A stretch of DNA of 64,000 nucleotides from Ricordea florida (lineage: Eukaryota > Cnidaria > Anthozoa > Corallimorpharia > Ricordeidae): NCBI GenBank assembly GCA_949710005.1, contig OX453281.1:20611561-20675560 (forward strand), read 5' to 3'. The position numbers and the translations under genes were made by a program. This document shows positions 12,797 to 58,400 of this stretch, piece after piece. The notes under the pieces were generated by a model that saw only the letters and a program-made list of their open reading frames with translations, was not told the DNA's origin and did not search any database. Each line of letters starts with the position of its first letter. Position 1 is the first letter of the stretch.

Positions 12797-14544
12797 ATGG
12801 AATCGGGGAAAGATCAAGCCGTTGATGTGGGCTATGAGATTCCAACATGGAATAACTGGTCTCCACTAGCGAAATTCTACCATCCTTTACAAGCTGGTAG
12901 CATTGACGGAACGGACACGGTACCCCACGACAGAGCTGTCTCCCGCGCTACTCTATCAAAATGTGAGTGTCTTGACCCTTTCAATCCCAAGATCTTTATA
13001 GCAGTTCTTATCACTCCTGTGTAAATGCCAACTCTCACACATTACTATTATGCATGAGTCTCACGCACCAAAAGACCAATGCGAAAGACATCGATCTCAC
13101 GCATCGAGGACATTCTTACGCCCGACTCAGAAATCCAGACGAATCCTTTGGAGAATTTGGTGTCATCAATTTAATGTCCTTGAGTTGACTTCTTTCTCAA
13201 GAAACTATTGCTGCGTCTGTGGGGAATTGAAGCACAAGAAATTGTGACAACCAAACGAAGTGATAAAGTAAGTTATACCACCTCCGACGAAGGGCTAATG
13301 CTTGAAACGTCAGCACCTCCCTTTTACCTTATGGTGGTATAACTTACTTTGTCAATTTGTTTGATTATCCGAATTTCTTGTGCTTTCTCAAGAGCTTGCT
13401 TGATACTGTATTGAGGAGAAGTTGCGTGTTGATCACTTGTGGAAGTGAAGAGGGTTAATTGATTTACAAATGAAAACAGTCTTACTTTTCTATTTGCTTG
13501 AGTCTGAGAAAATGGGTAAAATCAAATTGTACTAATCATAACATTCCTTGTGAAGTACAGATGTTTTATGCACTATATCATTTCTTTCAGATAAGCCAAA
13601 CAAGAGAAGTACTGGTGATCCACACAAAACATTGTTTGTAGGGAAGCTAACCAAGGATACCACTGAAGGTATAAACGTGCTGCAGTATGTCATTTCCTCT
13701 GTGTCCTATGGTTGTTCTGTGGTATCACATGTTTGCCCTGGCTTCTGTGACATCAGTTCTCTGCTGGGGATAACCCTGGGGTGTACATGCACCATGTCCA
13801 AGGCAGGATTAAATATTATATAAGAGCCAGCAGCCAGCAAAGTTACTCTGCAGAGGAGACAAAGTTGATCGTTTTTTAAACTTACAGTATGCCTGAATAA
13901 AAAATAATTCCTAATGGTCACCTGGAGAGGTGGTTCCTTCGAACTCAGTACCATCTAATTTACAAAAACCTTCCCCTGAAAACCCTGTGTAAGCCCTGCC
14001 AAGGAGGCAGGAGAAGTGTAAGGGTTGCTTATTCGCTGGGCTTTCTTGACTCAGCAACCAGTAGTAAGCTCTGGTAGTGTAGAGGCAATTTAGCTCCTGT
14101 GTGGCATTACCTCTCTTCTCCTCCCCCCCCCCCCTTAGGACTTCTACCATCCATCCATGCCCTCCAGTCTCAAGGTTCCAAATACTAATAGTACTGTTCT
14201 TGCAGATACTGTGTACAAAGTATTTGCAAAACATGGAGAAGTGATAAAGTGCAGATTAGTGAGGGATGTAGGTAAGTGTTTGGCAATTTTTAGTTTGTTT
14301 ATTGGTATTAACTGGACTTCTATCAGAAATGATTGCAGTGGAACAAGAGACAGCAACTTGCACTCTTTGTCTGTCCACTTCATAGGAAGTTTCTGAGATG
14401 AATTTGCATGCTGTATTTTCTAACATGCTCAGGTTGTCATAGTTAAACCAGCATCAGCGGCTTCAGTTATCAACAAGTGATGAACAAAGAGGTAGCTCAT
14501 ACTGTAACTAGGTAAACTAATGTTATGGAACATATTATTATCAC

Positions 14545-14578
<34 letters not shown>

Positions 14579-17395: not shown

Positions 17396-17632
17396 TGCTT
17401 ACCGTGGTTGTTTACCATTTACAAAGCATAGTGCATAACCGGAAAATCCGGTTGGGATGTAAATAGTTTGATTCACTAAAATATTCCTGCTCACCATTAG
17501 CACATCCGTCTGTGTGTGAACAGTGTTTTAGGTGTTGTTTAAATCCTTAATTTTTTGAGTTCCGCTCAGGTCTATGGTCAGTCCTGACTGGCTGATTTTT
17601 GCTAAATTCCATCCCATAATCCTTGATTTACA

Positions 17633-17638
17633 AATAAA
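17633..17638 (+). terminator. SNRNP35 polyadenylation signal
   Basis: A canonical AATAAA lies about 240 bp after the SNRNP35 stop codon and is followed by a T-rich, GT-containing stretch, the expected layout of a 3' end. Confidence 0.55.
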
Positions 17639-17937
17639 GTGTGCCATTGAAGCACCAATTCGCAATTAAAAGTCACTTTTCATTCTATTAGGTCTCGCCA
17701 GGTCTCTGTGATACAGCCCTTGAGCTTATGGGGTGCTGTGAAGACAAACATAAAAAGAAATGAAAAATGGTAGGGTTGTGGGATGTGGCTTGAAATGACA
17801 GCGTCAAAATGTAATAAGGGTAAGTTGAAGCCACACATATGCGCACTGAGGCGACAGTGGTAGAAGGGATCTATCAACCCTGTTGCTACCAAAAAAAGAG
17901 ATGAAAAAAAAATGATATGCTTTACAAAATGAAGGCG

Positions 17938-18010
17938 CGCCCGATATGGGACTTGAACCCATGACCCTCAGATTTAAAGTCTGATGCTCTACCGACTGAG
18001 CTAACCGGGC
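17938..18010 (-). tRNA. tRNA-Lys (TTT)
   Basis: This 73-nt sequence has a full cloverleaf: acceptor GCCCGGT/ATCGGGC, D arm GCTCAGTCGGTAGAGC, anticodon arm with loop CTTTAAA (anticodon TTT), and T arm ATGGGTTCAAGTCCCAT. There is one G-T wobble in the acceptor, no other mismatch, and no intron. Box A and box B promoter elements are internal. Confidence 0.92.
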
Positions 18011-18323
18011 TCACACAGACCTAAAAAAGTTAATAAAGGTTTAATACTAAGAGCAGGTAATCACGCCATGAGAGACAAGTAACAGGTTAAGTCTTTATGA
18101 TGGATCTAGGAGCGTAAATTCATTATTTCAAAAGGTTAGAAACACTAGTAACTACGTTCCCATGAGGCTATTCTTTGGTGTCATTCTCGCCGTCGTCGTC
18201 TTGTTTTCCCTAGTTCCATATTTTACTATTGGCATCTTCGTTTAACGTGGCCATGAATAAATAATGACAGGTAATTGCGCTTTTTAAATAACTATACCAA
18301 ATCCGGCTGCGTCTGTGGGGAAT

Positions 18324-18478
18324 CAAAGCACAAGAAATTGTGACAACCAAACGAAGTGATAGAGTAAGTTATACCACCTCCGACGAAGGGCTAACGCTCG
18401 AAACGTCAGTACCTCCCTTTTACCTTACGGTGGTATAACTTACTTAATCAACTCGTTTGATTTACCCATTTTCTTGTG
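18324..18478 (+). mobile_element. Foldback repeat with hammerhead-like core, copy C
   Basis: This is the cleanest copy. The arms are as in copy A, with CCGACGA at 18380-18386, helix II GGGC-TAAC-GCTC (G-C, G-U, G-C, C-G), and GAAACGTC at 18400-18407. The first core residue set reads CCGACGA where a hammerhead needs CTGANGA, so one substitution separates it from the consensus. Confidence 0.62.
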
Positions 18479-18932
18479 TTTCAATGTAGATAGCTTTGAT
18501 AAGTCGCTCTTATTCTCGATAAGTTTCACGATCAGGAAGATTCACTTTTAAGTGATCGCTCGTAAATTTGTCTCTCCAAATATTCATTTTTAGATTTTCG
18601 CTCATAAACTAGTGCATCGTAAAGGTTGGGGAACAAAAAGCTATAATCTTTCTCTTGACTGTCCTCCATGTCTCGTGATTTTCAAAATGGCGGATAAGAT
18701 TTCAATGAGCCAGCGAGCAAAGGTAACGAGCCAGCGATAAATCTCAGTCAGCGATATATCCCTAACAATGTAACTTTTAAAAAACGACAGAAACCGTCTG
18801 CACTTTATGACCGGTGCCAGCCTTCGGCTGGGCCCCGGTAATAATATTCCCCTGCACAAATCAGTTCGTCAGTAGTCACATGCACGCATTGCAAGCCTAT
18901 TTTGTTCCAAAAAGCGTTGCCAAAATGAGGCG

Positions 18933-20187: not shown

Positions 20188-22272
20188 TCAGTATTCGCTT
20201 ACGCCGTAGCATTTCAGTTTTCCCAAAGAATGATACCCTTTGTTTCTTGAGGAATATCCCGTATCTCCAAACCTTAGTTGCCTTACAGGAAGTTTGGACT
20301 TGTCTGTGAGAAGACCGCTGTCTTCACGTAAAACGCCGTCGTTTTTATCACAGTTGCAACCGTAGCGGACATTTGCACAGGAGTTGGTCATCCCGCATGC
20401 GCACTTACCACTACCAGGGGCGGCTCCTCCCCAGTATGTCATTTTAGTGGAATCACGTGCCACCCACCAGGCCATGGAGCCTCTAAACAACCTTGAATCA
20501 ATACACTCATACTTTATAAACTGTTCGCAGTGTGACGACACCCTGGTAAGACTCGCTAGCTGAAACAGACTCGCTCCTGTGTAATGGATGTCATGTGAGT
20601 AGCTACCAGCGGACTTATATCCATCCACTAATGTTCTGCTCTCACTGTCATGACCGATGACGGTCACGCCCACTCCATTCTTGTCAGTCATGTCACAGTA
20701 CACGGTAAATGGTGCCAGGCCTCCCTCGCCATCTGGGTCGATGGCGTAATTTCCGTTGGTACTGCTTGCGTGACCTTTTAACACAGAACAGGAAGGGGGA
20801 AAAACAGGCCTAGGAGAATTGATCTTAACTGTTGCTTCTATCGTCGTCAGAGCAATAGTCGCTTTACACGTGTAAAATCCTTCATGTGATTTCTTAACGT
20901 TGGGAATGAGCAGAGTTCCATCCAGTAAAACATGTGAGTCTGCCGGAAGTGAAGGCTTGCCATCCTTCATCCATGCGACTGAAGGTTTCAGATCACTCTC
21001 GGCCATACATGGCAAACGAACGCTGGATCCAAGGAATGGAGTCAATTGCTCAGGCGGACGAGATTTAAAGTGCAAAGTAGAAAAAATCATCAGTAGAATG
21101 GAAGATTTTGCTGTTCCTAAAGTATTCTTAGCTTCACAGACGTACGTCCCGCCATCCTTTCTTGTGACATTGTAAATCGTCATTTCTCCTTTCTTGATAA
21201 CAACTTTTTCTCTTGGTAATCTATCAACAGCCTTTGTCCACGTGACTACGGGGTGCGGCTGACCAAGAGCTGTGCAATTCAAAGTAACATTTTGTTGTTC
21301 TTCAGCGATCATTCGTTCTTTTGAGGAGACTATAGGCGCGAACTGAACTGTCAATTTAGCCGACGTGTTTATGTGTCCCAGAATATTTTCAGCTCTGCAA
21401 CTGTAAATCCCGTCATCCTTGAGCCTAATGTCACTCAAAATCAGAGTGCCACTGGACTCTACCACGTGACGTCCAACTGGAAGCGTTGAGTTGACCTTTG
21501 ACCACGTGACTTTGGGAGGTGGGTTTCCATCCACTGTACATTTCAAGACGGCCGTCTGACTTTGGTTGACTGTCATCCTAACAGAAGACTGTAACAGTGA
21601 TGGAGCCGAGATGGACTGGCCCGGCTCACCTTTAGCGCCCTTCATGCCTTGCGGTCCTGTCGGTCCCGTGGGACCTGAATCTCCTGGTAAACCAGGGTCC
21701 CCCTTTATTCCCACGGATCCTTCAGGTCCTATTGGGCCGTGTTTACCAGGGGGTCCTGTTGGCCCAATTTTACCCGGTTTTCCTCGGATACCCGGTCTTC
21801 CCTGTCTTCCTCTGTTTCCTTTGGGTCCTGGTTGGCAGAGCGTTTGATCCTTAGCACAGAATTTTTTCTGAAACAAACGAAGCTCTCGTTTGATTATCTC
21901 TTTTATTATCTCTTTCACTTGAGAAGCTTTTCTTTGTGGACCTTGCTGTGAATCGTCTGCAGACGAGCTGCGTTTTTGCCTGAGGCCACTTTCCACGCGA
22001 TCTCCATGTCCCGTCTTCGGCGTAAATTGTAATTGGCTGCGCGCCATAACTTTCCATCTTCCGTGATACTGCTGTACTTTGCGAAGGATTTCTTGTTCCA
22101 TCTCATCAAACGATGCCAATGAGTGAGAAATAAGTCGATGATGTTGTTCTAACTTAATTTCCACTTGTATCAGTGCCACACAACACACAACAGACAGTGC
22201 CAAACCTGAAGCTGAAAACAAATGGTATAATGTTTTTCTTTTACTTCTCTTCTGTCGATCTTGTTTCGTCAT
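20188..22272 (-). CDS. Type II membrane collagen/Ig/fibrinogen-like protein
   Basis: A single uninterrupted frame encodes 694 aa from the ATG at 22270-22272. The basic N-terminus is followed by one hydrophobic segment (residues 19-37), so the protein is probably type II with the rest outside the cell. A furin-type RQKR lies at 98-101, followed by an amphipathic stretch. About 24 Gly-X-Y triplets span 148-219. Three Ig-like domains follow, with Cys pairs at 245/292, 333/379 and 422/469. The Cys-rich C-terminal region (494-694) contains YCDMTD and [14 protein letters not shown]; it resembles the fibrinogen-like module of contactin-associated proteins. Membrane collagens with such a furin site can be shed into the matrix, which is likely but unproven here. 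The absence of introns in such a long multidomain gene is notable. I do not know a named orthologue. Confidence 0.85.
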
Positions 22273-22869
22273 GGTCAGAAACTTCGATGATCCTTCTCTC
22301 AATGAAAAAAAGGCTTTAGGTAGGTATCTATTGCACGAAAGATAGCTGTGTTTTAAGTCCCTAAGGAGCTTAAATTCCTAATGTTATGGCTAACAGCGTA
22401 ATGTTATTTACACTATGTGCGCGTATCAAAGTTTGAACTTCTGTGATCTGATACGGAATCTGACAAGACGCGTCACCTTGATTTATTTCCGTTTATCACG
22501 TGACAGGAAAACACTGGCATAAAAAAGACCAACTAGATTGTCTGTTTAGGAGTCATATGACACCATGCAGTTATCAAAGAAGACGGAAAACTTGTCAGAC
22601 TCTAAAATCCACAAGTTTTCCGGGGGTTATAAGGCTTTAATACGCTGGCGAGTTTCAAATGGTATCATAAATGCAAACAACGAAAAAAAAACCCTGAACG
22701 TAACAAAAATTAAACACAAAAAGTCTCAGGCTCGGAGAGGCAAACAACTACAATTCTAAACATAAGAGCCATAACTCAACAATTTCACGTGTATTATCTT
22801 TTCTTTTGTTTCAGATAATTCCAGGTCACTTTACCTGGCCACTTAATGCTTGGTTTGACTGTGTTGAGT

Positions 22870-24376
22870 CAAGAGAAAATGAGGAAAGAGAACATAACCC
22901 CGTCTGATGTGATAAGAGAAAATGAGGAAAGAGAACATAACCCCATCAGATATGATAAGAGAAAATGAGGAAAGAGAACATAACCCCGTCTGATGTGATA
23001 AGAGAAAATGAGGAAAGGGAACATAACCCCGTCTGATATGATAAGAGAAAATGAGGAAAGGGAACATAACCCCGTCTGATATGATAAGGGAAAATGAGGA
23101 AAGGGAACATAACCCCGTCTGATGTGATAAGAGAAAATGAGGAAAGAGAACATAACCCCGTCTGATATGATAAGAGAAAATGAGGAAAGGGAACATAACC
23201 CCGTCTGATGTGATAAGAGAAAATGAGGAAAGAGAACATAACCCCGTCTGATATGATAAGAGAAAATGAGGAAAGAGAACATAACCCTGTCTGATATGAT
23301 AAGAGAAAATGAGGAAAGAGAACATAACCCCGTCTGATGTGATAAGAGAAAATGAGGAAAGAGAACATAACCCCATCAGATATGATAAGAGAAAATGAGG
23401 AAAGAGAACATAACCCCGTCTGATGTGATAAGAGAAAATGAGGAAAGAGAACATAACCCCGTCTGATATGATAAGAGAAAATGAGGAAAGGGAACATAAC
23501 CCCGTCTGATATGATAAGGGAAAATGAGGAAAGGGAACATAACCCCGTCTGATGTGATAAGAGAAAATGAGGAAAGAGAACATAACCCCGTCTGATATGA
23601 TAAGAGAAAATGAGGAAAGAGAACATAACCCTGTCTGATATGATAAGAGAAAATGAGGAAAGAGAACATAACCCCGTCTGATGTGATAAGAGAAAATGAG
23701 GAAAGGGAACATAACCCCGTCTGATGTGATAAGAGAAAATGAGGAAAGGGAACATAACCCCGTCTGATATGATAAGGGAAAATGAGGAAAGGGAACATAA
23801 CCCCGTCTGATGTGATAAGAGAAAATGAGGAAAGAGAACATAACCCCGTCTGATATGATAAGAGAAAATGAGGAAAGAGAACATAACCCTGTCTGATATG
23901 ATAAGAGAAAATGAGGAAAGAGAACATAACCCCGTCTGATGTGATAAGAGAAAATGAGGAAAGGGAACATAACCCCGTCTGATATGATAAGGGAAAATGA
24001 GGAAAGGGAACATAACCCCGTCTGATGTGATAAGAGAAAATGAGGAAAGAGAACATAACCCCGTCTGATATGATAAGAGAAAATGAGGAAAGAGAACATA
24101 ACCCTGTCTGATATGATAAGAGAAAATGAGGAAAGAGAACATAACCCCGTCTGATGTGATAAGAGAAAATGAGCAAAGAGAACATAACCCCGTCTGGTAT
24201 GATAAGAGAAAATGAGGAAAGGGAACATAACCCTGTCTGATATGATAAGAGAAAATGAGGAAAGAGAACATAACCCTGTCTGATATGATAAGAGAAAATG
24301 AGGAAAGAGAACATAACCCCGTCTGGTATGATAAGAGAAAACGAGGAAAGGGAACATAACCCCGTCTGGTATGTTA
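22870..24376. repeat. 43-bp minisatellite, about 35 copies
   Basis: A unit such as GATAAGAGAAAATGAGGAAA followed by GAGAACATAACCCCGTCTGATGT repeats about 35 times. Variants (GAGAAC or GGGAAC, CCCC or CCCT, GATGT or GATAT, GATAAGAG or GATAAGGG) recur in blocks, giving a higher-order period of about five units (215 bp) in the middle. Because 43 is not a multiple of 3 and the unit lacks stops on the minus strand, all three minus frames stay open. The resulting 504-, 441- and 312-residue frames are artefacts of the repeat. Confidence 0.95.
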
Positions 24377-24600
24377 AGGAGACAGAATCTATTTTTTAAC
24401 GCGGAATCTATTTATATCTCGTTCCATGGCTGCGCGGTTTCCCCATGGCGCATTGAAATTACAACCACTTAATGAGAAGGACATCAGCCATTGCTCAGTT
24501 AAAATAATTTCCGGATCTAAAAATAGATTCTGTTTCCTTATCATAGTAAGAGAACCCAGTATGGAAGATACGTTCTCTTGTCTCATTTTCTCTTGGTTGT
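24377..24600. repeat. Inverted partner of the 43-bp minisatellite end
   Basis: AGACAGAATCTATTTTT at 24381-24397 pairs with AAAAATAGATTCTGTTTCC at 24519-24537. Just outside it, GTTCTCTTGTCTCATTTTCTC near 24572 is an inverted single copy of the minisatellite unit. The array is therefore one arm of a foldback whose other arm was never amplified. Confidence 0.65.
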
Positions 24601-35190: not shown

Positions 35191-37299
35191 GCAAGTTTCA
35201 TCAGTTAGTATAAATTGCCTCAAGAACTATAATGTAACCATGCCTGTAACTTAATGACAATGGTAGTTGTAGATTGAAAATTTCAAAGCATGTTCAAAGT
35301 AGAATTAATTATGTAGATAGAGTTGAGCACAAAATTTTGGAGTTGCATTATATTGACCACAAGGTTTCTTTTGGACAGTTCCTTGTCTCAAGCAAATTAT
35401 TTATTGCCCAATTTTGAAGAGGGCATTTAGAATTTCTTCACATTGTTATATTACTGGTTCAGTGAAGCAGACAGAATTTCTTAAGTGTATAGACTGATTT
35501 GTTAATGACAATAGTATGGTATTTATATAGTGTGTTTGTGGTTTGGGGGGCAAAACTCCCCACCCACCACATCCCAAATCTATCCCTTGAAAAATAGACA
35601 TTCTATTAATTTTAGCAGCGTGAGTAACCTTCCCTTCCCCCCTCCCCCCAGGAGAGGGCAGACACTTCTCAGAGATCATATGCCATCGAAACACTTAAGA
35701 CGGTGATAACTTTGTCTTGGTTCATACCATAACATCATGTTCCTGTTGTGGTGTGAAGACCACAGATGCATTACTTTGGTACGATTGTGATTGGAAATCA
35801 CTCACATTATCGTGTATCAAAGGAACTAATGAGTCCTTGTCCAGAGTGCATCTATCAGTTCTTTTGATGCTTTATAATCAGTGTGATCTTGAATTGCAAA
35901 TCCATCACATCAAAGGAATGCATCCTCAGGAATGCTCACAGGGATGATGTGTCTTTCTTGTAGGTTGTGCTAACCAAAATTTAGTTTGAGATTTTTCAAT
36001 AAATAGTAATATTTAAAATGAGTGAGAAGATATTAATACATTAAAATATCATGTGCTGCTTTTCTTTGTTGGTAAGAATTAATTATCACTTGTACAAAGG
36101 ACAATTTTCCAAGTTATTCTAATTTTGTAACAAAAACTGATAAATATTAGTCATTTGTTGGTCTCTGTGGTGTTTATTGTGTACACATTTTGACCCTTTT
36201 TGGAGGGTAATTTTTTTTCAAGGATCACCCTCACCATGAATTTGCAAATCAGGTGCAAAGTACTGTAGTATAGTCTAAAGGAGTGTCAAAGTTTGGGTTG
36301 GTGAATTGTAACTTTTTAAGTTCCATTCATTATTTCCAACCAGCATCAAACTATGTCTGATTATCATCTGGTTGCAACATGTAATTTTCCTTTTAATAAA
36401 TGTGGGATATTGGATAGTCCCGAGGATAACAAAGAAAACTTGGATGAGCCAAATGCCTAGGAACCCACAACAAAAGAAATGTTTCCTTTTTGTTGCTGCT
36501 TTGGGAGTGGTTGGCATGCTTTCATAGGTTTTATTTTGAATCAACCGCTTTTGTTTACATCTCGCCACCAAGAGGTTTTGTGGATACATATAATTCTAGT
36601 GGCAAGCCTGCAACTTTGCAAACTACTTTGTCAATTTGACAGAAAAGATACGGCAGTAATAACAAACTGCATAGAGATGTTACAGTAATAATATGACAAA
36701 TTACCAGTACTCATTAATTTTGGTGCAAAATTTCAGCATTAATTTATCATTTCACACATAAAATTACAATGTTGTTATGGCAACTTCTCCTACAGTGCCA
36801 AAATGGCGTCTAGGTATGAAAATGTTAAGGAGTAATTTGTCACCCATGATATTAGAAATATTGTATTAAGCAATAGAATTTGGACAAAACGCATGAAATT
36901 ATTCCCTAATTTCACTGGTCACCATTTGGTTACACATACGTATCAAATGAATGCTGTCCAAGTGTTTCCAGAAAGGTCATGGAGGTAGTGTTTTGTTCAT
37001 CCTTATGTGTAAAACCTTTTATGTCCATTGTTCCTGGACAAAGTTGTACCAAGACCACAACCTTTCAGTTATCTTTCTTTGTAAAAGCCATGACCTGCCC
37101 TGTCCATCCCAGTACAGTACAGTATGTGGAGCCTGTCTCATTTCCAGCCAAATTAAACTGTCTGGTCCCTCCAATCATGGATGGCATTTCTTGTTCACTA
37201 TCTAACCAGTGTCAACTGCCTTGACAATCTCTGCATATGGCGGCATCTTTTTATGTACTTTCCAGCCTATGCATGATGTTCAGTTTCTCTCTCCCTTAA

Positions 37300-37317
37300 G
37301 GTGGTACCGGAGGCTAA
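37300..37317 (+). repeat. Left terminal inverted repeat
   Basis: GGTGGTACCGGAGGCTAA is preceded directly by the TTAA target site. The match to the right end is perfect for 18 bp and then stops. Confidence 0.9.
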
Positions 37318-37588
37318 AGTGACCTTTTTTTTTGGCCGAGATTTTTTTTCAGCATGAAGATAATCTTGAAAGGTAAACATATGCCAAGTTTCAGGTCGGG
37401 GAATAAAATCCCGTCCGAGATATAGGCACGCGAAGTTTCGTTTCTACGGCCATTTTCGCGGCAAAAATACGAGCTCCATGCTGCATTCGATACAGTTGTG
37501 TCCCGCTGTGGAAGTCCCCAAGGATGGTCTTGCTGACAGCTCGATTCAATAAAACCTTGTAATCTGAAATGTAACACCCTCTTTGATC

Positions 37589-38464
37589 ATGGCAGCTGAA
37601 GAAGCAACACGCGCGCTTGACCGTCATTTCAAAGAGAACGGGTAAATATATCGCTTGTTGTAATGAAATTTCTTTTCTTCTTGTCACTTATTTGCTAAGT
37701 TAACAATGGCGTTCTTGTCATCCAGTTTGCAAGGAGCTCCTCCAGGCCTTCAGAGATTGCTTCGTGGGTTCAGCTTGAAAGCTGGCGAAACAAGCGAAGA
37801 AGGGAGGCGCCGTTTTTACCGCCGAATTTTTGGAATCTTGTGGGTAAGTACCTCCCATTTTTTGCTCTTGGTTCTCCCGGTGAGAACATTCGATGCTGTG
37901 CTTACCTTTCAACTGCCTTTTCTTCCTTTGTTCTTTTTGTTAGTTGATAATTTCAGCCAACACTCTCCTTGTTCTTCCACGTGGCACGTTCCCGCATATA
38001 GTAGCGTCTTGTTTTTACCACATCGCAATCTCAATTCTACCCATTAGCGCTTTCTCACTTGTTGAAGACGCACAAAACCTGGTTGTGTTGGAGTGTAATA
38101 TGTTTTTGCATTTTTATTGCCTCTACAGTATGGCAACAAAATCGGCGAGGGAAAGTACCGTGGGAAGGCCCTTCCCACCTATGTCTATCCGGATTGCTTG
38201 AAAGAAGCAATCCGATCAATCATCGATGAGGGACTCCGGGACTATCTGAATCCTGAAACTTCAGCAGTAAGATATCATGTTTTGTTGTTGTATTAGTTTT
38301 GCCTCATTGAAAAATTCACATTTATGTAAACATCGATAAACAAATTAGTGCTTCCCTTCAGCAAAATTTAAACATTAGTTATCTCATTCCTTCTATCTTG
38401 CCTTTAGGTATACAAGGTTACCCTGACAGACCTAAGGGGTGCAAAATGGCCAGGGGATGCCTGA
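37589..38464 (+). CDS. Transposon accessory protein, 121 aa, unknown function
   Basis: Four exons with GT-AG borders join in phase: 37589-37641, 37726-37843, 38129-38266 and 38408-38464. The ATG has the context GATCATGGCAG. The protein starts MAAEEATRALDRHF, has a basic centre (EEGRRRFYRRIFGILW), then KIGEGKYRGKALPTYVYPDC, a predicted helix (KEAIRSIIDEGLRDYL) and a short C-terminal end (DLRGAKWPGDA). There is no signal peptide, membrane segment or zinc motif. I do not recognise the family. Because it lies wholly inside the transposon and points toward the transposase, it is probably the element's second gene, perhaps helping DNA binding or transposase control; that is speculation. A possible poly(A) signal follows at 38503. 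Confidence 0.68.
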
Positions 38465-39911
38465 TTTTCTTCTTCGTTTGTAATGTTCTATATTTTTTTA
38501 GCAATAAAATGAATTGAAAAGAAATGCCTGTCATCATCTATTCTCATGAGTACGCTGAACCTGAAGTCCTTCCTTTCATTTTTACACACTCACGTTGTTT
38601 GATACAATAAATTATTACACCATACATGTATGGAAGAGCCAATTTTTATTACTTTATGTACAATCATGTCTCACCAAAAATTACATTTACCAGCAATATA
38701 TACCTAGGTACTCTTACTTTCAGAAAGTCAGATTGTGGAAGAATGTAAACTAGATTCAAAACTAGATCAAGTCTTACTGGCATTGTCCTAAAAATTATGG
38801 TAATAAAAGACAAGACTCCTAGAGGTATATCTTGTGTAAAAACTACAATATTCTTTTTTTTTTCTAATTTTTAACCATTTTGCAAATACATTTGAAATTT
38901 GATTTGAATCCCAATAACTCAACCCTTCAAGGGAAATCGAAAAACGTTCTAGTTTTTGAAGTTCCCAAATTATCAGGGGTAAGATCAATAGGAAGTATGA
39001 GTTATCTGGATTCAAATGTAAACACTTACATAGTGCTACAGCAAACTGATGTTAGTGCTAATCTAAAATTAAGATAATGACTGACAACACCAGTCCTTCA
39101 ACTTCAGTCCTCATAAGCACTTCCCAAGGGTTTGGCAAGACACCCTACCCACCCCCCAGCACACACACAAGGGAAAAGAAATACTATGCAATAGGACACA
39201 TTGCTTTCAGGCAAGATTTCATTTAGGAAACTGATTTAGAAAATCATAATCAATATTTGAAAGCATGAAAAAGCTAACAACTTCACAGCTCTAGTACAAA
39301 TTCACCACCCCTCGACAGCTCCCATGTAATGCTGTACTCAAACAAATGCACAAAATTTGGATTGAAATGTTGGCATTTGCAAATGCCATATTTACCTCGA
39401 TCAATACTACTTAGGACTGCTCCTGATTTTCAAGCACATCATAATTTTTTTAAACAGAATCCTCTCATTATTCATTTTCGAAACTGTTGATATGTGGTAA
39501 CTAAGGCTATGTCAATTATCAGCTAAGAAAAGACAAAATGTAATTGGACCTCACTTTTCCATTGCACAAATGTATGAAGTACTACACAAATTTTGTGCTG
39601 CAAGACATTAATATTTGTTTATACTCAATTATTTCCTGTTTTATAATTGTTCAATAAACTTTAGAATTCTGAGGTAATAGCAATGAACAAGAGCAGAACC
39701 CTAATAACACTAGACTACTCAAACTTCAAACAGAAACCAACTACAGGTCACAAAGAAATCTCTTCATATCCTTAGGAAGTAAACTTTCACATATCTTAGA
39801 AGTAAACCTCTTCACATTTTGTTTCATTTCTTGGTTCATGTTACATGGAACTTTCATTCAATAAGTGTTTCAAACTCTTTGCCAACATACATTTTAATCA
39901 GTTATTTGGCA
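38465..39911. other. Convergent region between the two transposon genes
   Basis: No coding exon was recognised here. It is AT-rich and should contain the 3' UTRs of the 121-aa gene (plus strand) and the transposase (minus strand). Confidence 0.5.
38503..38508 (+). terminator. Polyadenylation signal of the 121-aa gene
   Basis: AATAAA lies 39 bp after the stop codon, the expected distance for a compact transposon gene. Confidence 0.55.
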
Positions 39912-42900
39912 TTATTCTCTTTTATTAAAAGGACAGTCTCTGTGGCTTTTTCTCATGTGAGTTTTGCTACCACACCACTTACAGCTCTTTCCTCCTACTT
40001 CAAGACTTGCTCCTTCTGGGGCAGAAACTGGTTGCAGCACGGGAGGGGGTCGTGCACTTCCATCAGCAATTGCTGTTTCTGTCAGCATTACAGCTTCTTC
40101 CTCATTGCAGGGGTCATCTTCATCATCATCTCCATAAGTATGCCTGATACGGCAGCTCTTTACATACTTCTTTCTGAAGTAAAACAATAAACAATGCATG
40201 ATAAATACAGTGTATCTTTGTGTCAAATTTGTGATAATGTTCATCAGGTCAACTATTCCCTCCATCCTCAATTCTTCTTTTTTTCCCTTCTTACTTTACA
40301 AATCTAAAAATGATATTTTTTACCTCAGTGTCTGCTCCTCAGTTCTGTCAATTTTTGATTTTACACGCTTCTTTTTACCCTCCTCAGTCCTCTTGTTTTC
40401 CAACCTTCTCATTCTTTCCGCATTATCGACTGTACACTGCATGAGATAAAAGTGATAAATAAGGTTAATAGTTTTCATTGGGAAAAAATAAACAATAATG
40501 GAAACTTCTAATTCTCATAATTGTTTTGATCTCAATTCACACATTATATACATTTGAGATGCAAGGGAATATTGAAATTAGCTAGTAAACAACTTTAACT
40601 GCTCACTCCTTGAAAACATTCTAGAAATTAGAAAACATACCCTTTCTTGGACACCATAGAGCACTGGCAAGCCCATTCTGGAATACAGGTCCACAATCCA
40701 GTGGTAAGTGGGTCCCATCCTTGTGAAGCACCAAGTCATGTTTGCTTGGATTAAGCCGAGATTAGTTGATGCGTAGTAGTGCTTCTGGTGCAAGTTGATG
40801 TCCTTAGCCCTAAACTTAGTGAGGACACTAAAGGTTGACTCTGGCAGGTTCGAGTGCCCCTTACCCAAGCCTGGATCAATCACCTTCTCTGCACCAGCAG
40901 CCCTCTCTGCACATTCTATTTCGTAAGCCATAGCATGGAACTCACATTTTAAAACATGAGCAGAATGGTATTGCTCCCCGGGACATTTTAGTTCCTCATA
41001 AAACCCATCCTCATCACATTTACACCCTTTACAGCTGCATTTCTTTACCGGGTGGAATGAACAAGAACCCCCCTCCCACTCATGGATGTCACGTGCGTGA
41101 TATTTTCCCAAGCAAAGCATTGTTTGCCTGTATTTTTCGGGGTCTTTACCTGCATGCACCATTGCACAGTAATGATTCCGCTTTGCACCCTGGATGAAAC
41201 CTGGGCTCATACATCCACATGAAGGTTTGCTGCTTGTCGCAACATAAGTGTGCTTTTTCCCAGCACAACAACACTTCATTTCTTCCATACCGGGGTAATC
41301 CTTCTTGTGATTGTCAATAAATCCCTTGCTAAAAGAACTCTTTGTTTGGAGCTCTTGCAACTTCTTCCCGTGAGCCCTCCCAACGTGACCCCCACACAGC
41401 ATTATTTTGGACTCTTGTTCATCAGAAAAAGAGTACCTGAAACCCTTTGCAGAAGATGAATCCGCATCCTGCCAATTGACTTCCACTTTTAATCCCTCCT
41501 CTTTGGCTTTTCCCCACAAAACCTGGGCCAAGTGTCCCTCTGCAGCCTTTGAAGTACCCTGCCACAACTCTTCATTACAAATATTATCTGCCCCGCGCAT
41601 TGACAAGTGCCCATAATAGAGGAGACCCCCCGTCAAATAATTCTTTATAATAAAGGTACAGTTTTGGCTAAAATGCCCCCTTATTTGCCAGCACCCATCG
41701 CATGTTGTCACCCCCCTTGACCAACTCCCCAACTGACCATCTGGAAGGGCTTTCATATAATCTTTCTCCCTCTCGCACATTTCGTCGAGTATGCCCTTGA
41801 TGTGGGGATAAGCAAGGTCGATGATTTCTATAAATGGCTTGTCAGATAAAACACCCAAACCCAAACCCTTCCCCAAAGTTTTCCTATAAGAGGCATAGTT
41901 ATGCCCACTTATGAAAAAAGCTAAGGGTAGGGCTAAGGACACCAGATGACGGCGTGACTCTGCGGCTAGTTGGCTGCTTTGATAGCCTATTTCTGCTGTC
42001 CAGCATCCATTGCAGCGGAATAGAAATTTCATCGCACCACCTAATCCCCTCTTTTCATTTGCCACAAGCACTAGGTTACCTAAGGGGACATTTAGTTCAT
42101 TGTTTTTCACATTGTTATATGTATCTAAGAATATACAATAATAATTAAATAATAACATTACTAATGATTTCGAATGAAGGGGATACAGAAATTGAATCAA
42201 CAAAAACTATTTTCAGAGGGAAAAAATTAAGTATCATATATCAATCAATCAGAAAATTATATTTCTAGTTTGTCTAGTTTGCTAGGAATTCTTAGGCACT
42301 CTTTTACAATGCCCCAAAATACAAATTTACTCGTATGGTGGTGTAGCAGATGGGAACTACAGCTAAAGTTCACAGGTACATAAGCTTATGTATGCAGAAT
42401 TTGGCACCTTTATGGCAAAGCAGTTTTTATTTGAAGAATATTATTATCAGACTTTTTCAAAGGCATAAACTCAAACAAATGGATACGTACCTTTACACCT
42501 TCCCTCATTTGATGGACATTTGAAAAATTGATTGAATTGCCTCACAAAATTCACGATGCTTGAGGTCGTAGCAACAAACAGTCCTTCTGGAACTTCGATG
42601 CTGAAAACAAAAAGATTTGAACTCTTGTAAACAGGTGATCCACTCATTTGAGAAAACATGTATTAGCCATCTCATGTCGAATGGTAAACAAAAAGGAATA
42701 CACGAGACCAGGAGCCGAATACAGTATGAATTCTTGGCTCCTGGTGAGAATATACACTGCATTCAATATTCACAGAAACTTATCAGGAAAAATTACCCAC
42801 AAATGAATACATGTGATAGCTTGACAAGAACAAAAAATAACACTTCAAATAATCACAACTAATCCCGCCAACAACGGAAATCAGGATTTTTTTAAATAAA

Positions 42901-43365
42901 ATTCAGATGACTTACTGTAAGCTACTGATAGAAATACTATAAGATAAAAGCTCACCATTCGTCCTTGATTGCTTGAACACTTCGCTTCTCTGGCGGTTCG
43001 TAGTCGGTGTCATCATCTGAGGACAAAGCATCCGACGTCTTCGCTTTTGGATCACGCTCGATACGCTCATCACAATGTCGTACTGACTCACACACAAATG
43101 CGTCGAAATTCCCTTCTGCTTTAAGCTGTCTCTCGACCTCTTTGCTGCTTTTGACCGACTTTCCAGCAGGGTTTGTATATCTGTAGAAAACTTTCAGTCC
43201 TGTTGACGATGACTTCAATTTTCTTTTGTCTTCGATTACTTTCCAACCAGCTTGTCGCAACTTTTCAAAATCAAGGACAATTCTTGAGTGTGATCCCGAA
43301 CCTCGAGCTTCGTTAGCACGCGCAGACTTTTCCTTAGTCGCGTTGGAATGCTTTTTTGGAGGCAT
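39912..43365 (-). CDS. MBD-like / Kolobok-type DDE transposase / zinc knuckle protein
   Basis: Five exons join in phase: 42956-43365, 42491-42600, 40641-42124, 40324-40436 and 39912-40173, giving 792 aa with no internal stop. Exon 1 (ATG at 43363-43365, MPPKKHSNATKEKS) carries an MBD-like domain: GWKVIEDKRK, then VFYRYTNPAGKSVKSSKEVE. Exon 3 holds the catalytic core. Likely acidic residues are the Asp of TTCDGCWQIRG, the Asp of NWQDADSSSAKGF (followed by CGGHVGRAHGKKL) and the Glu of SNLPESTFSVLTKFRAKD, plus a Cys-rich insert. The last exon ends in a zinc knuckle (CKWCGSKTHMRKSHRDCPFN). The acidic residue assignment rests on family resemblance to Kolobok/Mutator-like transposases. Expected role: cut-and-paste transposition at TTAA in the nucleus. 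The MBD-like domain might read methylated DNA, but its call is moderate and its arginine fingers are not obvious. Confidence 0.82.
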
Positions 43366-44206
43366 TTATCGCTGTTCTTGTAATCTCTGCTCGCGTCCCG
43401 TTCGTTCCCTCGAAATGACTGCGTTTTGTCTAATTTCAACCTGTCAACGCTGACTGTTGGGGTGCCGTTGCTATGCAGAGGTGTCATTGTTTATAATGCC
43501 TTGCGCCTGATTGGTTTCGCGCGAAAAATAGCTCCCCGTAAAAGGATGGAGGGCCCAAAATAGGGCCATTTCAAGCGATTTACCGCTGTTAACTTTTATT
43601 GTAGACGTCAAAACAATATGGCTGCCATCGAAAAGAAGCTAATGTGAACTTTTGTGCCCGTTTTCTTCAGTTTAAGCTCGATTTTTGGCCAAAAAAGACA
43701 TGTTATTTTAAAGGTGGTAGTTTTTGAAATTATATTATTTTTTGTAGTTTTACTGGAAAGACACGAAACTTCGCAGAGATCGAATATATACGTGAACGAA
43801 CTATTATGTGGGAATACGTCAAATGCCTACAAATATAAGGCCCGTGGCAGGATGAAACATTTTTGAAAGTTACGAAACAATATTTCTTGACATATCTTTT
43901 ATTCTATTTCTTATTCTTTGACGTACTCCCACATAATTCTTGCTTTAAGTGATACAAATAAATTTACCAAAGCTTATTGAAGTCCAAGGAATTCTCTTTG
44001 AGTTATATCGAAAAAAGTAAAATGTAAAGGTTTCGACCACACCCATAAGAAGATCATATTACAGAAATTCTTTTTATTCTTTTGGAATAAAACTATTTTT
44101 GAGAAAATCAGCACAAATAAAAGATTCACCTGTGAAGATACGATTGCGATTGAACAATTATTTCTACAGATTTTATGTATGTAAATATGTGCTAAAAATG
44201 TTGAAA
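43366..44206. other. Transposon right subterminal region
   Basis: This should hold the transposase promoter just right of 43365, where the DNA is GC-richer, followed by about 600 bp of AT-rich subterminal sequence. TTTATT at 44073-44078 is an AATAAA on the minus strand and could serve transcripts entering from ANAPC2. There is no gene. Confidence 0.5.
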
Positions 44207-44224
44207 TTAGCCTCCGGTACCACC
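44207..44224 (-). repeat. Right terminal inverted repeat
   Basis: TTAGCCTCCGGTACCACC is the exact reverse complement of the left end and is followed directly by TTAA. Confidence 0.9.
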
Positions 44225-44264
44225 TTAACTAGTTCTATTTTGCATTGCAGCTGACTATGTTCTG

Positions 44265-47200
44265 CTATCTGCCTGCTTTTGGCAGTCTGTAAAATCCATT
44301 GACAAACTGCAACTCTTGGTCTTTGACTTTGCGGTCCAGAAACCGCCGCAAGTCATCAACACTGCACTGACTTGATGACAGTCCTTGCATGGCAAACATT
44401 CGTAGCATAGAATGGATTCTATCCAATGGTAGGCTTTCCAGATTGGTCAACATGCCCACAATATATGACCAGAACACCTTAAGAAGACAAATTAGGATGT
44501 AACACATTACTGTATTTTAAATTGTTGTGGTACTGTTCGTTTTACTATACAGTGTGGTTCTAACATTTCTTAAGGATCAAACCATCCCGTGTGTCCATTC
44601 TTTGGAAAAATACTAAACAATACTGTACTGTGGTACTGTGTTTCACTGTTATAGTGTGGTTCTACCCTATTTCTGAAGGATCAAACCATGCAGAGTAACC
44701 ATTTCTTGGGATGCTACTGGACAGTTCTGTACTATGGTACTGCTTGTTTTACTGTAAAAGTGTGAGCAGGTTTTAAATTACTGCATTTCACCATCCAGTG
44801 ATTAGTGTTCTGAAACAATTGTAACAATTCAAATACCTGTTAAATATCTTTTAAACTTTACTGTGAATTATTTTACCTGCAATTCCTCTTCTCTTTGATC
44901 CTCAGATGAAGCCATCACAGACTCCACTTCAGTATCCATGACAACCTCTGCAAAATATAATGAAAAATATACGACCATCCTACTGAAAAATGAGTGCAAC
45001 AATGGGAGAGTTCCTTCTACGTAGAATGGAAAACAGGGTGAGGGAGGGGGATGCTACATGTAGGGGAAAGCATTTAGACACAAAGAAAACATTTGTCATA
45101 CATGTACTGGTACCTATTTTAAGACCACACCCAAGATAAAATTATCACTAAAGGAGGTTAGCATTTTCAAATGCTTAACTATTTATATTCTTCCAAGTAG
45201 GAGTACACTGGGATCAATGGAAGTATATGGGGGGGGGGGGGGACTGTGCACCTACCCCTCCCCTAACCTAACATTGATGCTAACTTTTTAACTTTATTAT
45301 AACTTGTTGGGTTAGGGGAGGGGTAGGTGTACAGTTGCCCAGATACAGTACCGGACAGAAGTAACCTAACAGGGAACGCATTACTGGATGCTTAAGGAAT
45401 GCTAATTGGAACGCTAAGGGAATGCTAAGGGAACGCTACGGGAATGCTACGGGAACGCTAAGGGAATGCTAAGTAGAACACTAAGGGAATGCTAGGTAGA
45501 ACGCTAAGGGAATGCTAAGTAGAACGCTTAAAGATCGCGTTCTGCTTAGCGTTCTCTGTTAGGTTACTTCTGTCCGGTACTGTACTTCCATTGATCTGTA
45601 CACTGTACATTAGGCTCTGCCGTACATGTTGTCATGCAATTCAATCTTTGGTCTAAATTTTGTCCTTTCCTTATCACACATTAACATACCCAAAGGCAAA
45701 CATTGAAAGAAAAGATAATTTGAACCACCAGGATAAAATTGAACCATCACAAAGTACATCCAGGAGCTTTGTAAGTTAAGAGAGTGGGAAAAGTCTGGGG
45801 CATGCACGTTCTGTCTTAAGCTTTGTAAGTTAAGAGAGTGGGAAAAGTCTGGGGCATGCATGTTCTGTCTTAAGCTTTGTAAGTTAAGAGAGTGGGAAAA
45901 GTCTGGGGCATGCATGTTCTGTCTTAAGCTTTGTAACTTAAGAGAGTGGGAAAAGTCTGGGGCATGCATGTTCTGTCTTAAGCTTTGTAAGTTAAGAGAG
46001 TGGGAAAAGTCTGGGGCATGCACGTTCTGTCTTAAGCTTTGTAACTTAAGAGAGTGGGAAAAGTCTGGGGCATGCATGTTCTGTCTTAAGCTTTGTAACT
46101 TAAGAGAATGGGAAAAGTCTGGGGCATGCATGTTCTGTCTTAAGCTTTGTAAGTTAAGAGAGTGGGAAAAGTCTGGGGCATGCACGTTCTGTCTTAAGCT
46201 TTGTAACTTAAGAGAGTGGGAAAAGTCTGGGGCATGCATGTTCTGTCTTAAGCTTTGTAACTTAAGAGAGTGGGAAAAGTCTGGGGCATGCATGTTCTGT
46301 CTTAAGCTTTGTAACTTAAGAGAGTGGGAAAAGTCTGGGGCATGCATGTTCTGTCTTAAGCTTTGTAAGTTAAGAGAGTGGGAAAAGTCTGGGGCATGCA
46401 TGTTCTGTCTTAAGCTTTGTAAGTTAAGAGAGTGGGAAAAGTCTGGGGCGTGCATGTTCTGTCTTAAGCTTTGTACGTTAAGAGAGTGGGAAAAGTCTGG
46501 GGGGTGCATGTTCTGTCTTAAGCTTTGTAAGTTAAGAGAGTGGGAAAAGTCTGGGGGGTGCACGTTCTGTCTTAAGCTTTGTAAGTTAAGAGAGTGGGAA
46601 AAGTCTGGGGGGTGCACGTTCTGTCTTAAGCTTTGTAAGTTAAGAGAGTGGGAAAAGTCTGGGGCATGCATGTTCTGTCTTAAGCTTTGTAAGTTAAGAG
46701 AGTGGGAAAAGTCTGGGGCATGCACGTTCTGTCTTAAGCTTTGTAAGTTAAGAGAGTGGGAAAAGTCTGGGGCATGCACGTTTTGTCTTAAGCTTTGTAA
46801 CTTAAGAGAGTGGGAAAAGTCTGGGGCATGCACGTTCTGTCTTAAGATTTGGGAAAAGGCAATTTTGGGAAACTTTGAAAACACAAGTGAAATTAATCCT
46901 TAACCCTTTAACCCCTGAGATCAAAATCTTAATTCTTCTAACTGATCTGAATACATCTTTCATTACAACAGTGTGGAGATTTTGATGTTATATCAACAAA
47001 AACCTATACAAGTTTTCAGATTGCATATTCTCATGAGCTCTATGGTTGCCTTTGTAGTATTATGTTTAAGAGAAGATGCATGTTGGTCACTCTCAGGGAG
47101 TAAAGGGTTAACTGCACAAGGGCACATTGTGATTAAACTGAACTGTAAACGGTAACGTAAAGCACAAAATCATTGAGGGAAGTCCATCAGTGCCACAACA

Positions 47201-55470: not shown

Positions 55471-58400
55471 ATGGAGACCCCTTGGGAGTGAAAGGGTTAA
55501 CCTACAAAATAGCCAATAACACCATGGCATTACTGACAAACAGCCAATAACATCATGACCTATCACAAAAGTGAACTGAGACATAAATACCACCACCTGT
55601 CAAAATGTAAATCACTTGACTCTGATAAGGACTTCTGTTCAGGTTGTTAAAATTTTAGTCCATGTCATCAACAATTCTTCTCAGAACTACTAACGCCAGG
55701 ACAATCAAAGTCCACTAAACATTTACTGAGACTCTTGGGTTCAAACCATTCACAATTCTCTTTACGTTGATCCTAAACACTTTTTTGTATGTTAGTTTGG
55801 AGAATTTGGTGTTAGACATAGATGCAAGTGATTGGATACCTGTATCAATTTTCAGTAATTATTCTTCTGCTCTGCAATACCTTAATGATAATACAATCAC
55901 TTAGCGACTAGAAAACATTTTAAAAAAGCACTCTTTCAGTATTATTTTGCTCAATATTAATTAATTCATACTTCTTCCTCTCCTATGTCAAGTTTAACTT
56001 TTTTACCCTAATTTTTATTGTCAATTAAAGAAGGGCATCCAATCAGCTTGCTACATTTTTGCCCTTTTCCATTTCTACTCTTACTTGTGTACTTTATATT
56101 TATCTTTGTAATTCTGGAATAGAATAAATAAATAAAATGAAAAAATGAAAATGAAAATAGAAGGGTGCTACACAAAGAGCATTACATGTATATAGTAATG
56201 CAGGCTAAATATAACAGCCAATGGTAAGACATGACTGTGCACCCTACTCCACACTTTACATGGTTGTTCTACAGGTAGTTACCTGAGATATTGCCTCACA
56301 GGTGCACAAACATGCTCCAAGATGACACCAGCTGGGTCAAGGACATGGAGAGCTCTGATTGCTGATACATACTGCGTCAGGATATCAGATGTGTTAGCAC
56401 CAGGATGGAGAAGTCGTCTTTCAAACCTTAAAATGCCATTGATAGTAGATTGGAGAATGCAAAGTATTGAATCTAAGACACAGCATACAGTGTTTAAATT
56501 GACACTCAGTACTGAATAATTAATACCAAGATGGGGCACAGTAAAGGAGGCCATACGAGACCTTGTACAACTGTGAGTCTCTTATTAAGAATCTGAACTA
56601 AGCATTTATACCTGAGAAATTCAAGCTCAGGCATGATGCCCACTACCGACTACAGCTGCACCTCCCCACTGTGGGATGATTGTACACTTTTCTATGCCCC
56701 CACCAAAGAGCAATCAAGTTTAGATTCCTCTTCAACTCAATTATACATGTTGATCAAAATAACAAAGTGACCTGACTTATTGCTGCACAAACTAACAAAC
56801 TAACCATGACCAAAATCCATTCTGAAAAAGCCACAACCTTTAGAGACCAGAATATTACTTACGCAGATCTTAAAGATGTTATCAACTCTTTCCTTTGGTC
56901 TGTCACCTCTAAGCATTCCTAGAATGAAACAGAACCTCATGAATACTGTACAGTGACTATTGCCATACTCAGATAAGTACTAATTAATAAAATAAATTTT
57001 CCTTTTTAAATATACATTACCTACAGTAGTTGAGAGTAATCTACAGTAGGTGATGCAGTATTGATACCAGCTGGTTGGATGGAAAGCCACTGTCATACTG
57101 ACAGCCCCAAGATATGCCATGTAAACTCTGCTCCTTCAATCTGTATACTATTTTGGCATCTACTGTAATAATTACTGAAGTGTTCCAAGTTCTTTGTTAT
57201 AGGAATGAATTTTATTTAAATTACCTTTAGATCCTGGATAGCTGGAAGAGAGTCAGGGTATTCCACTATAATGGTGAACAGTTCACTGATCCTATTGCAA
57301 TAACACCAGACATAAGTCAGTCAAAGACGACGTATTCACTGTCATAAAACGATAATTGCCTTTTGTCCAAATATTAATTTATCTGCGCACAGGACTATGC
57401 ATGTACAACAATGCAAAGCTATCTACTCATAAAATTTAACAGTGTCATTAGATTAAACGATTATTATAGCTACTGCTTCACATTGTTTCATATTCCTGTT
57501 TAACATTCTCGTTTTTCTTCAGTATGCACTTTGTGTAATAAATTTATGTTGAGAAAAATAAAACGATGGTAATCCAAGTGGACGTTTTTGAAGTTATTTT
57601 TCCTAATGCTATCATTCTAGCAAAAACCTTTTTCAGAGATAAACAGAAACCATGCCATTAATGTAGAACGTGCTCTGCCATCACCTGAGGTCAGCAAAGG
57701 TCTTGTACATAAAGTAATACAGCTTAGGTTTCCACTCATCCAATATGTCTGAAGGAGCACTACTTGATTCTGTGGCATTGCTTTCACCTGAATTGTTCAA
57801 CAAGGCATCTTAAGTATATTGAAAAACACACCCATAAGAGATAAACACAGAAAGGATGAGGGGGGGGGGGGAGCTGTGCTTTTACACCCCAGTCTTAGCC
57901 CTCTTTCCCCAGTCTTGCTTTCTGCTGCCTTACACCTATGATACAGGATAACACATTTTTGTTGGTTACTCATTATTACCCATACAAGACACTGGGATAA
58001 TCAAACAAGGTGATTAAGTAAGTTATACCAACATAAGGTAAGAAAGGAGGAGGCTGATGTTTTGAGCATTTTGACCTCTGTCGTTTGCTCTGATGAACAG
58101 CTAATGGTCGAAACACCAGCACCCCTCTTTCTTTACCTTATGATGGTATAATTTACTTTATCAACTGTGCCATGGTGTGAGTCTCAGGCATTCTTTCTTG
58201 GAAAATTGTATCCACAGCCAATTCTTAACTCAGGTTTCAAGAATTAGAAAATGTAACACTTACTCAAAGTGAAATAGAATTACCGTCCTAAACATAATCT
58301 AGCTATGCTCGATAAAACTACTTACTATATTATCTCTCAGTTAGCATGCATGCTGCGACTGGTCAATTTTGCAGGCTGTATTCTCTAGTACACCCTGCTG

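Follow-up and report, generated by a model that had tools for sequence, protein, structure and literature searches.

Transposons of the Kolobok superfamily combine TTAA target sites and 5′-RR...YY-3′ termini with a DDD/E catalytic triad that harbors a C/DxxH signature between the second D and the E, and nearly all of them, except Kolobok1, carry a zinc-finger motif between C/DxxH and the E, as described in PMC9587614. That paper also describes two-gene elements (Kol0), in which the transposase is accompanied by KolX, a ballast-fold protein akin to the C-terminal domain of P2X7, and places shortened KolX relatives devoid of most zinc cysteines in a few piggyBac families. A THAP domain is usual in the superfamily (PMC6004289). 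Here, we describe an element of 6,925 bp located at 37300..44224 in a 64,000-nucleotide stretch of the genome of the corallimorpharian Ricordea florida (contig OX453281.1; the whole stretch is referred to as the window), which contains two convergent, uninterrupted and spliced genes encoding a 792-aa transposase and a 121-aa companion protein. Judged from its sequence, this is probably (at a rough probability of 0.83) an animal DNA transposon that is structurally intact and autonomous, moves by cut-and-paste and belongs to the Kolobok superfamily.

The element displays TTAA at its borders, RR/YY termini, a DDE core with CxxH and a Cys/His insert, as Kolobok transposons do, and resembles Kol0 in its TTAA duplication, 5′-RR...YY-3′ ends, DDE core with C/DxxH and zinc-finger insert, and two-gene layout. 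Unlike Kol0, it encodes a transposase with an apparent MBD fold at the N-terminus and no THAP found, and its companion is not demonstrably KolX. The likeness to KolobokP, KolobokE, KolobokD and KolobokH consists in Kolobok-type ends and core together with an accessory protein, whereas neither protein of the element has a nuclease or helicase domain by Pfam at E ≤ 10. Identity with KolobokP is excluded by the lack of its long terminal direct repeats (about 450 or 660 bp), the longest direct repeat reported in 37200-44300 being 28 nt. The second CCHC finger of KolobokP, KolobokE, KolobokD and Kolobok5, whose exact place in those proteins was not seen, finds no conserved CCHC counterpart between the first two Ds: one alignment shows no near-invariant Cys in this interval, and that of the long relatives shows a single one (C306 in the relative P0034), which is replaced by Ser in the window protein. 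The piggyBac transposons share the TTAA target and, in a few families, encode KolX-like proteins (PMC9587614), but the element begins with GG, encodes a transposase with the CxxH signature that marks the group of Mutator, hAT, P and Kolobok, and yields no Pfam match to piggyBac.

Ends and boundaries of the element

The boundaries comprise the following features, including the terminal inverted repeats (TIRs) and regions distinguished by their ratio of observed to expected CpG (CpG obs/exp):

37296..37299, unstranded: left TTAA target-site duplication (sequence, shuffle test)
37300..37317, plus strand: left 18-bp TIR, GGTGGTACCGGAGGCTAA, with a single CpG (repeat search, shuffles, simulations)
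37300..37588, unstranded: left subterminal region, CpG obs/exp 1.04 versus 0.09 immediately outside (37000-37249)
37430..37445, plus strand: left arm of a candidate subterminal inverted repeat, the two arms being 94% complementary (repeat search)
43701..44224, unstranded: right subterminal region, CpG obs/exp 1.16 versus 0.33 and 0.24 in the two adjoining outer 250-bp windows
43759..43774, minus strand: candidate subterminal inverted repeat, right arm (repeat search)
44207..44224, minus strand: right 18-bp TIR (sequence, shuffle test)
44225..44228, unstranded: right TTAA target-site duplication (sequence, shuffle test)

Both copies of the 18-bp TIR are perfect, each adjoins a TTAA, and the termini of the element are 5′-GG...CC-3′. 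When up to 3 mismatches are allowed, the window yields two occurrences of TTAA plus TIR, both exact, and none of 100 dinucleotide shuffles yields any. Exact inverted pairs of 22-mers spaced 0.5-12 kb apart number 13 in the window, and among these the pair of the element alone begins with TTAA; no such pair of any sequence appeared in 30 of 30 Markov simulations. Thus, the perfect inverted termini with TTAA on both sides that had been proposed in an initial annotation of this DNA proved exact to the base, and a TTAA-flanked repeat arising by chance, the objection which that annotation had itself raised, is ruled out by the 0/100 shuffles and 0/30 simulations. The two spliced, uninterrupted genes it had predicted are equally upheld, at 792 and 121 aa, with splicing backed by relatives. 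The 16-bp subterminal repeat is too weak to claim and could be due to chance. No paralogous empty site was found within the window, and no DNA related to the element was confirmed in IMG/VR and GTDB contigs.

Over the whole element, CpG obs/exp is 0.62 versus 0.54 in the rest of the window, and within it the ratio varies from 0.21 between the genes through 0.37 in exon 3 of the transposase to 0.78 over the companion gene. Across 37000-37600 and 43000-44750, values near 1 are seen in both ends and in the first transposase exon, and values of 0.1-0.3 immediately outside the TIRs and between the genes; about 12% of the 300-bp windows outside the element likewise reach 1. The CpG jump at the borders fits either a recent insertion or ends that are promoter-like and unmethylated, and is only suggestive.

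The transposase and its N-terminal domain

The exon junctions of both genes were picked by GT-AG motif and reading frame. The transposase gene consists of five exons on the minus strand:

42956..43365, minus strand: exon 1, with the MBD-fold domain at about residues 28-86 (gene model, profile searches)
42491..42600, minus strand: exon 2 (gene model)
40641..42124, minus strand: exon 3, with the DDE core (D316, D393, C417xxH420, Cys/His insert, E602; alignment)
40324..40436, minus strand: exon 4 (gene model; the relative P0008 splices alike)
39912..40173, minus strand: exon 5 and stop, with a C-terminal CCHC-like zinc knuckle at residues 770-786 (alignment)

The junction between exons 3 and 4 is found as predicted in the Montipora foliosa gene model P0008. 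Residues D316, D393 (or D395), C417GGH420 and E602 are each retained in 117-120 of the 120 relatives, and D395, which is conserved almost as well as D393, represents an alternative second D. Between CxxH and the E lie several near-invariant Cys and His residues (C416 to H648 in the numbering of P0034), which are candidate zinc ligands. The best structural matches of a model of P0034 are the transposases of ISCth4 and Hermes (hAT), with which the element shares the DDE fold; the ends and target sites of both are unlike those of the element. Relatives of the transposase are many and diverged, with clusters reaching 305 member sequences (P0016), and the closest named one among the matches listed is from Montipora foliosa (74%). 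The family PF20700, precomputed in 5 of the 120 listed relatives, was not used, since P0073, a relative from that set, gave no match in a Pfam scan at E ≤ 1.

The window copy shows no clear signs of decay when set against its relatives. At 160 columns that are invariant in relatives P0002-P0016, it shows 5 private changes; P0001 has every one of them, and hence none is unique to the window copy, compared with 1 to 15 in the other relatives. The window protein and P0001 differ at 10 positions of the compared stretch, which include S471 (R in 13 relatives) and S472 (N in 12 relatives).

In the N-terminal region of the window protein, Pfam detects an MBD at E 0.0075 (16.3 bits versus a cut-off of 21); in relative P0052 the corresponding value is 0.0038, below the curated cut-off, and P0037 matches DUF7028, again below its cut-off. 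Pfam at E ≤ 10 yields MBD alone in the window protein and no THAP, a domain that is usual but not defining for Kolobok. A profile built from six N-termini (window, P0034, P0118, P0084, P0052 and P0037) retrieves 12 PDB sequences at E ≤ 10, the best at E 0.0012; 11 of these are named MBD2, MBD3, MBD5 or MBD6, and the remaining one is SETDB2, which presumably carries an MBD as well. Furthermore, leave-one-out profiles recover every one of the six domains within 121 proteins, at values from 1.3e-6 (window) to 4.5e-16. These profile comparisons identify the N-terminal domain as an MBD fold, a verdict drawn from sequence alone given that, in the P0034 model, the VIA-align rows lay largely within residues 236-725.

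The same MBD-type N-terminus recurs in the sea anemone Exaiptasia diaphana, where three uncharacterised proteins, AC249_AIPGENE6000 (P0034), AC249_AIPGENE25248 (P0118) and LOC110234965 (P0084), join it to the same core; these proteins are 46-51% identical to the window transposase over the aligned part, and P0034 additionally shares its C-terminal knuckle. We read this as an MBD-bearing Kolobok lineage common to the window and a sea anemone. In a midpoint-rooted tree of 121 transposase cores, all six MBD sequences fall within one clade of 54 cores (support 0.968). The 17 proteins with precomputed PHD, Ulp1 (C48) or OTU domains are all placed outside this clade, beneath a node of poor support (0.147). 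Of the 54 clade members, only 14 have at least 560 residues, so that the lack of MBD, PHD, C48 and OTU in the others means little, and no MBD was found in P0044 and P0062, both of which extend well upstream of the core. Relatives outside the MBD clade that carry PHD, Ulp1 (C48) or OTU domains include P0061, P0083, P0087, P0088, P0116 and others. Scanning 55 of the 59 relatives with at least 640 residues at E ≤ 0.01 revealed PHD in 18, C48 in 14 and OTU in 2.

The companion gene

The 121-aa companion is encoded by four exons on the plus strand:

37589..37641, plus strand: exon 1 (gene model)
37726..37843, plus strand: exon 2 (gene model, relatives)
38129..38266, plus strand: exon 3, present in most relatives (gene model, relatives)
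38408..38464, plus strand: exon 4 and stop (gene model, relatives)

A search at E ≤ 10 yielded eight relatives; those with a species name all come from Porites, and that of Porites lobata is 72% identical over 84% of the query. The exon structure is mirrored in these sequences: P0121, which is an open reading frame (ORF) from a contig of 914 bases, and two NCBI gene models, P0122 and P0123, run uninterrupted through exons 2-3-4, or through part of exon 2 and exons 3-4, whereas in the intron-retaining ORFs P0124, P0125, P0127 and P0128, the last two of which are nearly identical, similarity breaks off where exon 3 is predicted to begin and end.

A kinship of this protein with KolX, as a divergent, P2X7-C-like version reduced to the C-terminal half and lacking most zinc cysteines, is tentative and no more than a lead. 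The two-gene layout matches that of Kol0, shortened KolX relatives exist in piggyBac families (PMC9587614), and a profile alignment of the C-terminal part pairs, in order, the YRRIFGILW helix with YRQLxRWCW and PDCLKEAIR with PSCAVxxIR. Against it, comparison with 80 P2X7-C/KolX-type proteins, gathered with a probe sequence, gave a non-significant hhalign P of 0.26 for the full-length profile (80 rows) and 0.08 for the C-terminal part (60 of the 80 rows, with the cut chosen after the first result), 29 of 300 column shuffles reached an equal score, and HMMER with the KolX-type profile produced no score above zero. Nor does any of the nine aligned companion members match Pfam at E ≤ 10, and the companion profile hits nothing relevant in the PDB; the structure model of the companion (pLDDT 44) was too poor and was used in no search.

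Another account would make the companion a passenger, that is, a captured fragment of a host gene or an unrelated small gene that plays no part in transposition. The scarcity and narrow range of its relatives at E ≤ 10 and the lack of a known domain are what would be expected of a passenger; yet the protein is conserved at 68-72% in Porites and has further relatives, with the exon borders kept, and is therefore under selection. We consider the passenger account unlikely, while granting it an appreciable chance.

Weighing the evidence and implications

Several points weigh against the reading of the element as an intact Kolobok transposon with an MBD-bearing transposase. The assignment to Kolobok draws on the ends, the target site and the signature residues rather than on profile or phylogenetic comparison with reference Kolobok transposases; the window protein matches no transposase family in Pfam at E ≤ 10, and Foldseek itself returned no match at E ≤ 0.001. 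The window holds a single copy with these 18-bp ends, and no copy was found in IMG/VR, which may omit the genome the window comes from. With respect to the N-terminal domain, the single-sequence signal stays below the Pfam cut-off in both the window protein and P0052, and no MBD was found by Pfam at E ≤ 1 in P0034, P0084, P0118 and P0037. When the window domain alone is compared with the PDB, the best match is MBD2 at E 1.1, followed by three unrelated designed proteins, and the position of the ‘FRS’ arginine of MBD2 is occupied by K, Y, Y, K, T and N in the six sequences.

This last observation bears on function as well. The best PDB match of the six-sequence profile itself has K at the FRS arginine, and the next one, with R, follows at E 0.0026. 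Residues R188, D176 and Y178 of MBD2, which we take to be those that read methyl-CpG, are absent from the aligned positions in 6/6 sequences, the other arginine finger lying in a loop that cannot be aligned; methyl-CpG reading is therefore not predicted, and a canonical methyl-CpG reader is unsupported. The MBD-fold domain is therefore best read as a DNA-binding module rather than as an established methylation reader.

The element might, alternatively, have been immobilised recently or be non-functional, with its sequence intact but silenced or unable to move. We regard this as a real, if unlikely, contender: the window has one copy with these ends, the CpG depletion between the genes and in exon 3 is of the kind left by past germline methylation, and the protein differs from P0001 in the 10 residues mentioned above, S471 and S472 included. 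However, perfect TIRs with TTAA, two open reading frames, the lack of changes of its own at the 160 invariant columns and CpG-rich ends against CpG-poor flanks all speak against this reading. Far less probable is domestication, whereby the transposase, or the gene pair, would be a host gene lying between TIR-like sequences by coincidence. Long, conserved, intron-bearing ORFs would suit a host gene, and domestication has been documented for Kolobok transposases of Xenopus (PMC6004289), but exact TTAA and TIR on both borders are beyond chance, every catalytic residue is retained, and the diverged relatives are many, in clusters as large as that of P0016. Moreover, the right TTAA of the element lies 36 bp beyond the stop codon of ANAPC2, whose last exon occupies 44265-44507 on the minus strand of the right flank (Pfam ANAPC2, E 5.2e-25; the ORF with its stop ends at 44265).

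The initial annotation had further singled out the element as a candidate for an undescribed system, on account of a transposase that joins an MBD-like domain, a Kolobok/Mutator-type DDE core and a zinc knuckle. This combination in the 792-aa protein is confirmed by profile and alignment, the MBD-like N-terminus having the backing of both the six-sequence profile and leave-one-out recovery, and no MBD-Kolobok combination was found in a full-text literature search, outside the scope of which lie Repbase and most subscription journals. What does not stand is the novelty of the system as such: in its ends, target site and catalytic signature it conforms to the known Kolobok superfamily, in which two-gene elements have been described (PMC9587614). 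The element seems to represent a new branch within the Kolobok kind already known rather than a kind of its own.

For a Kolobok transposon of this structure, we infer a mode of action in which the 792-aa transposase would bind the element ends via its N-terminal MBD fold, replacing the usual THAP of Kolobok, possibly with assistance from the C-terminal zinc knuckle. The DDE site (D316, D393 and E602, or D395 as the alternative second D) would then excise the element at its TTAA borders, and the excised element would be inserted at another TTAA, which would be duplicated. The 121-aa companion may assist, as an accessory protein, in transposition or in controlling it.

Elsewhere in the window, several inverted and repeated copies of 50-60 bp around GGTGGTATAACTTACTT are located within 13226-18485, with another at 57984-58041, and possibly form a family of small inverted-repeat elements. 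Two long tandem arrays, at 22871-24378 (43-bp unit, 35 copies) and 45765-46851 (54-bp unit, 20 copies), are open in at least one frame. A long ORF at 20188-22377 on the minus strand encodes collagen and immunoglobulin domains, with a fibrillar-collagen C-terminal match below cut-off, and an ORF at 4786-5346 on the plus strand, which encodes an integrase H2C2 zinc-binding domain, is probably a retroelement remnant.

If active, the element would be a natural TTAA transposon of an anthozoan. The MBD in place of THAP points to a superfamily able to swap its DNA-binding modules. It is conceivable, if improbable, that the MBD was recruited by an anthozoan Kolobok lineage as a sensor for the CpG state of the CpG-rich ends of the element; equally doubtful is the corollary that transposition would be coupled to, or escape, host methylation. 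Methylation sensing is presently disfavoured because the reader residues of MBD2 are missing. In cnidarians, methylation is highest on the youngest transposons (PMC8857917), and, given an MBD-fold transposase in such a setting, the question of whether transposons read host methylation becomes directly testable.

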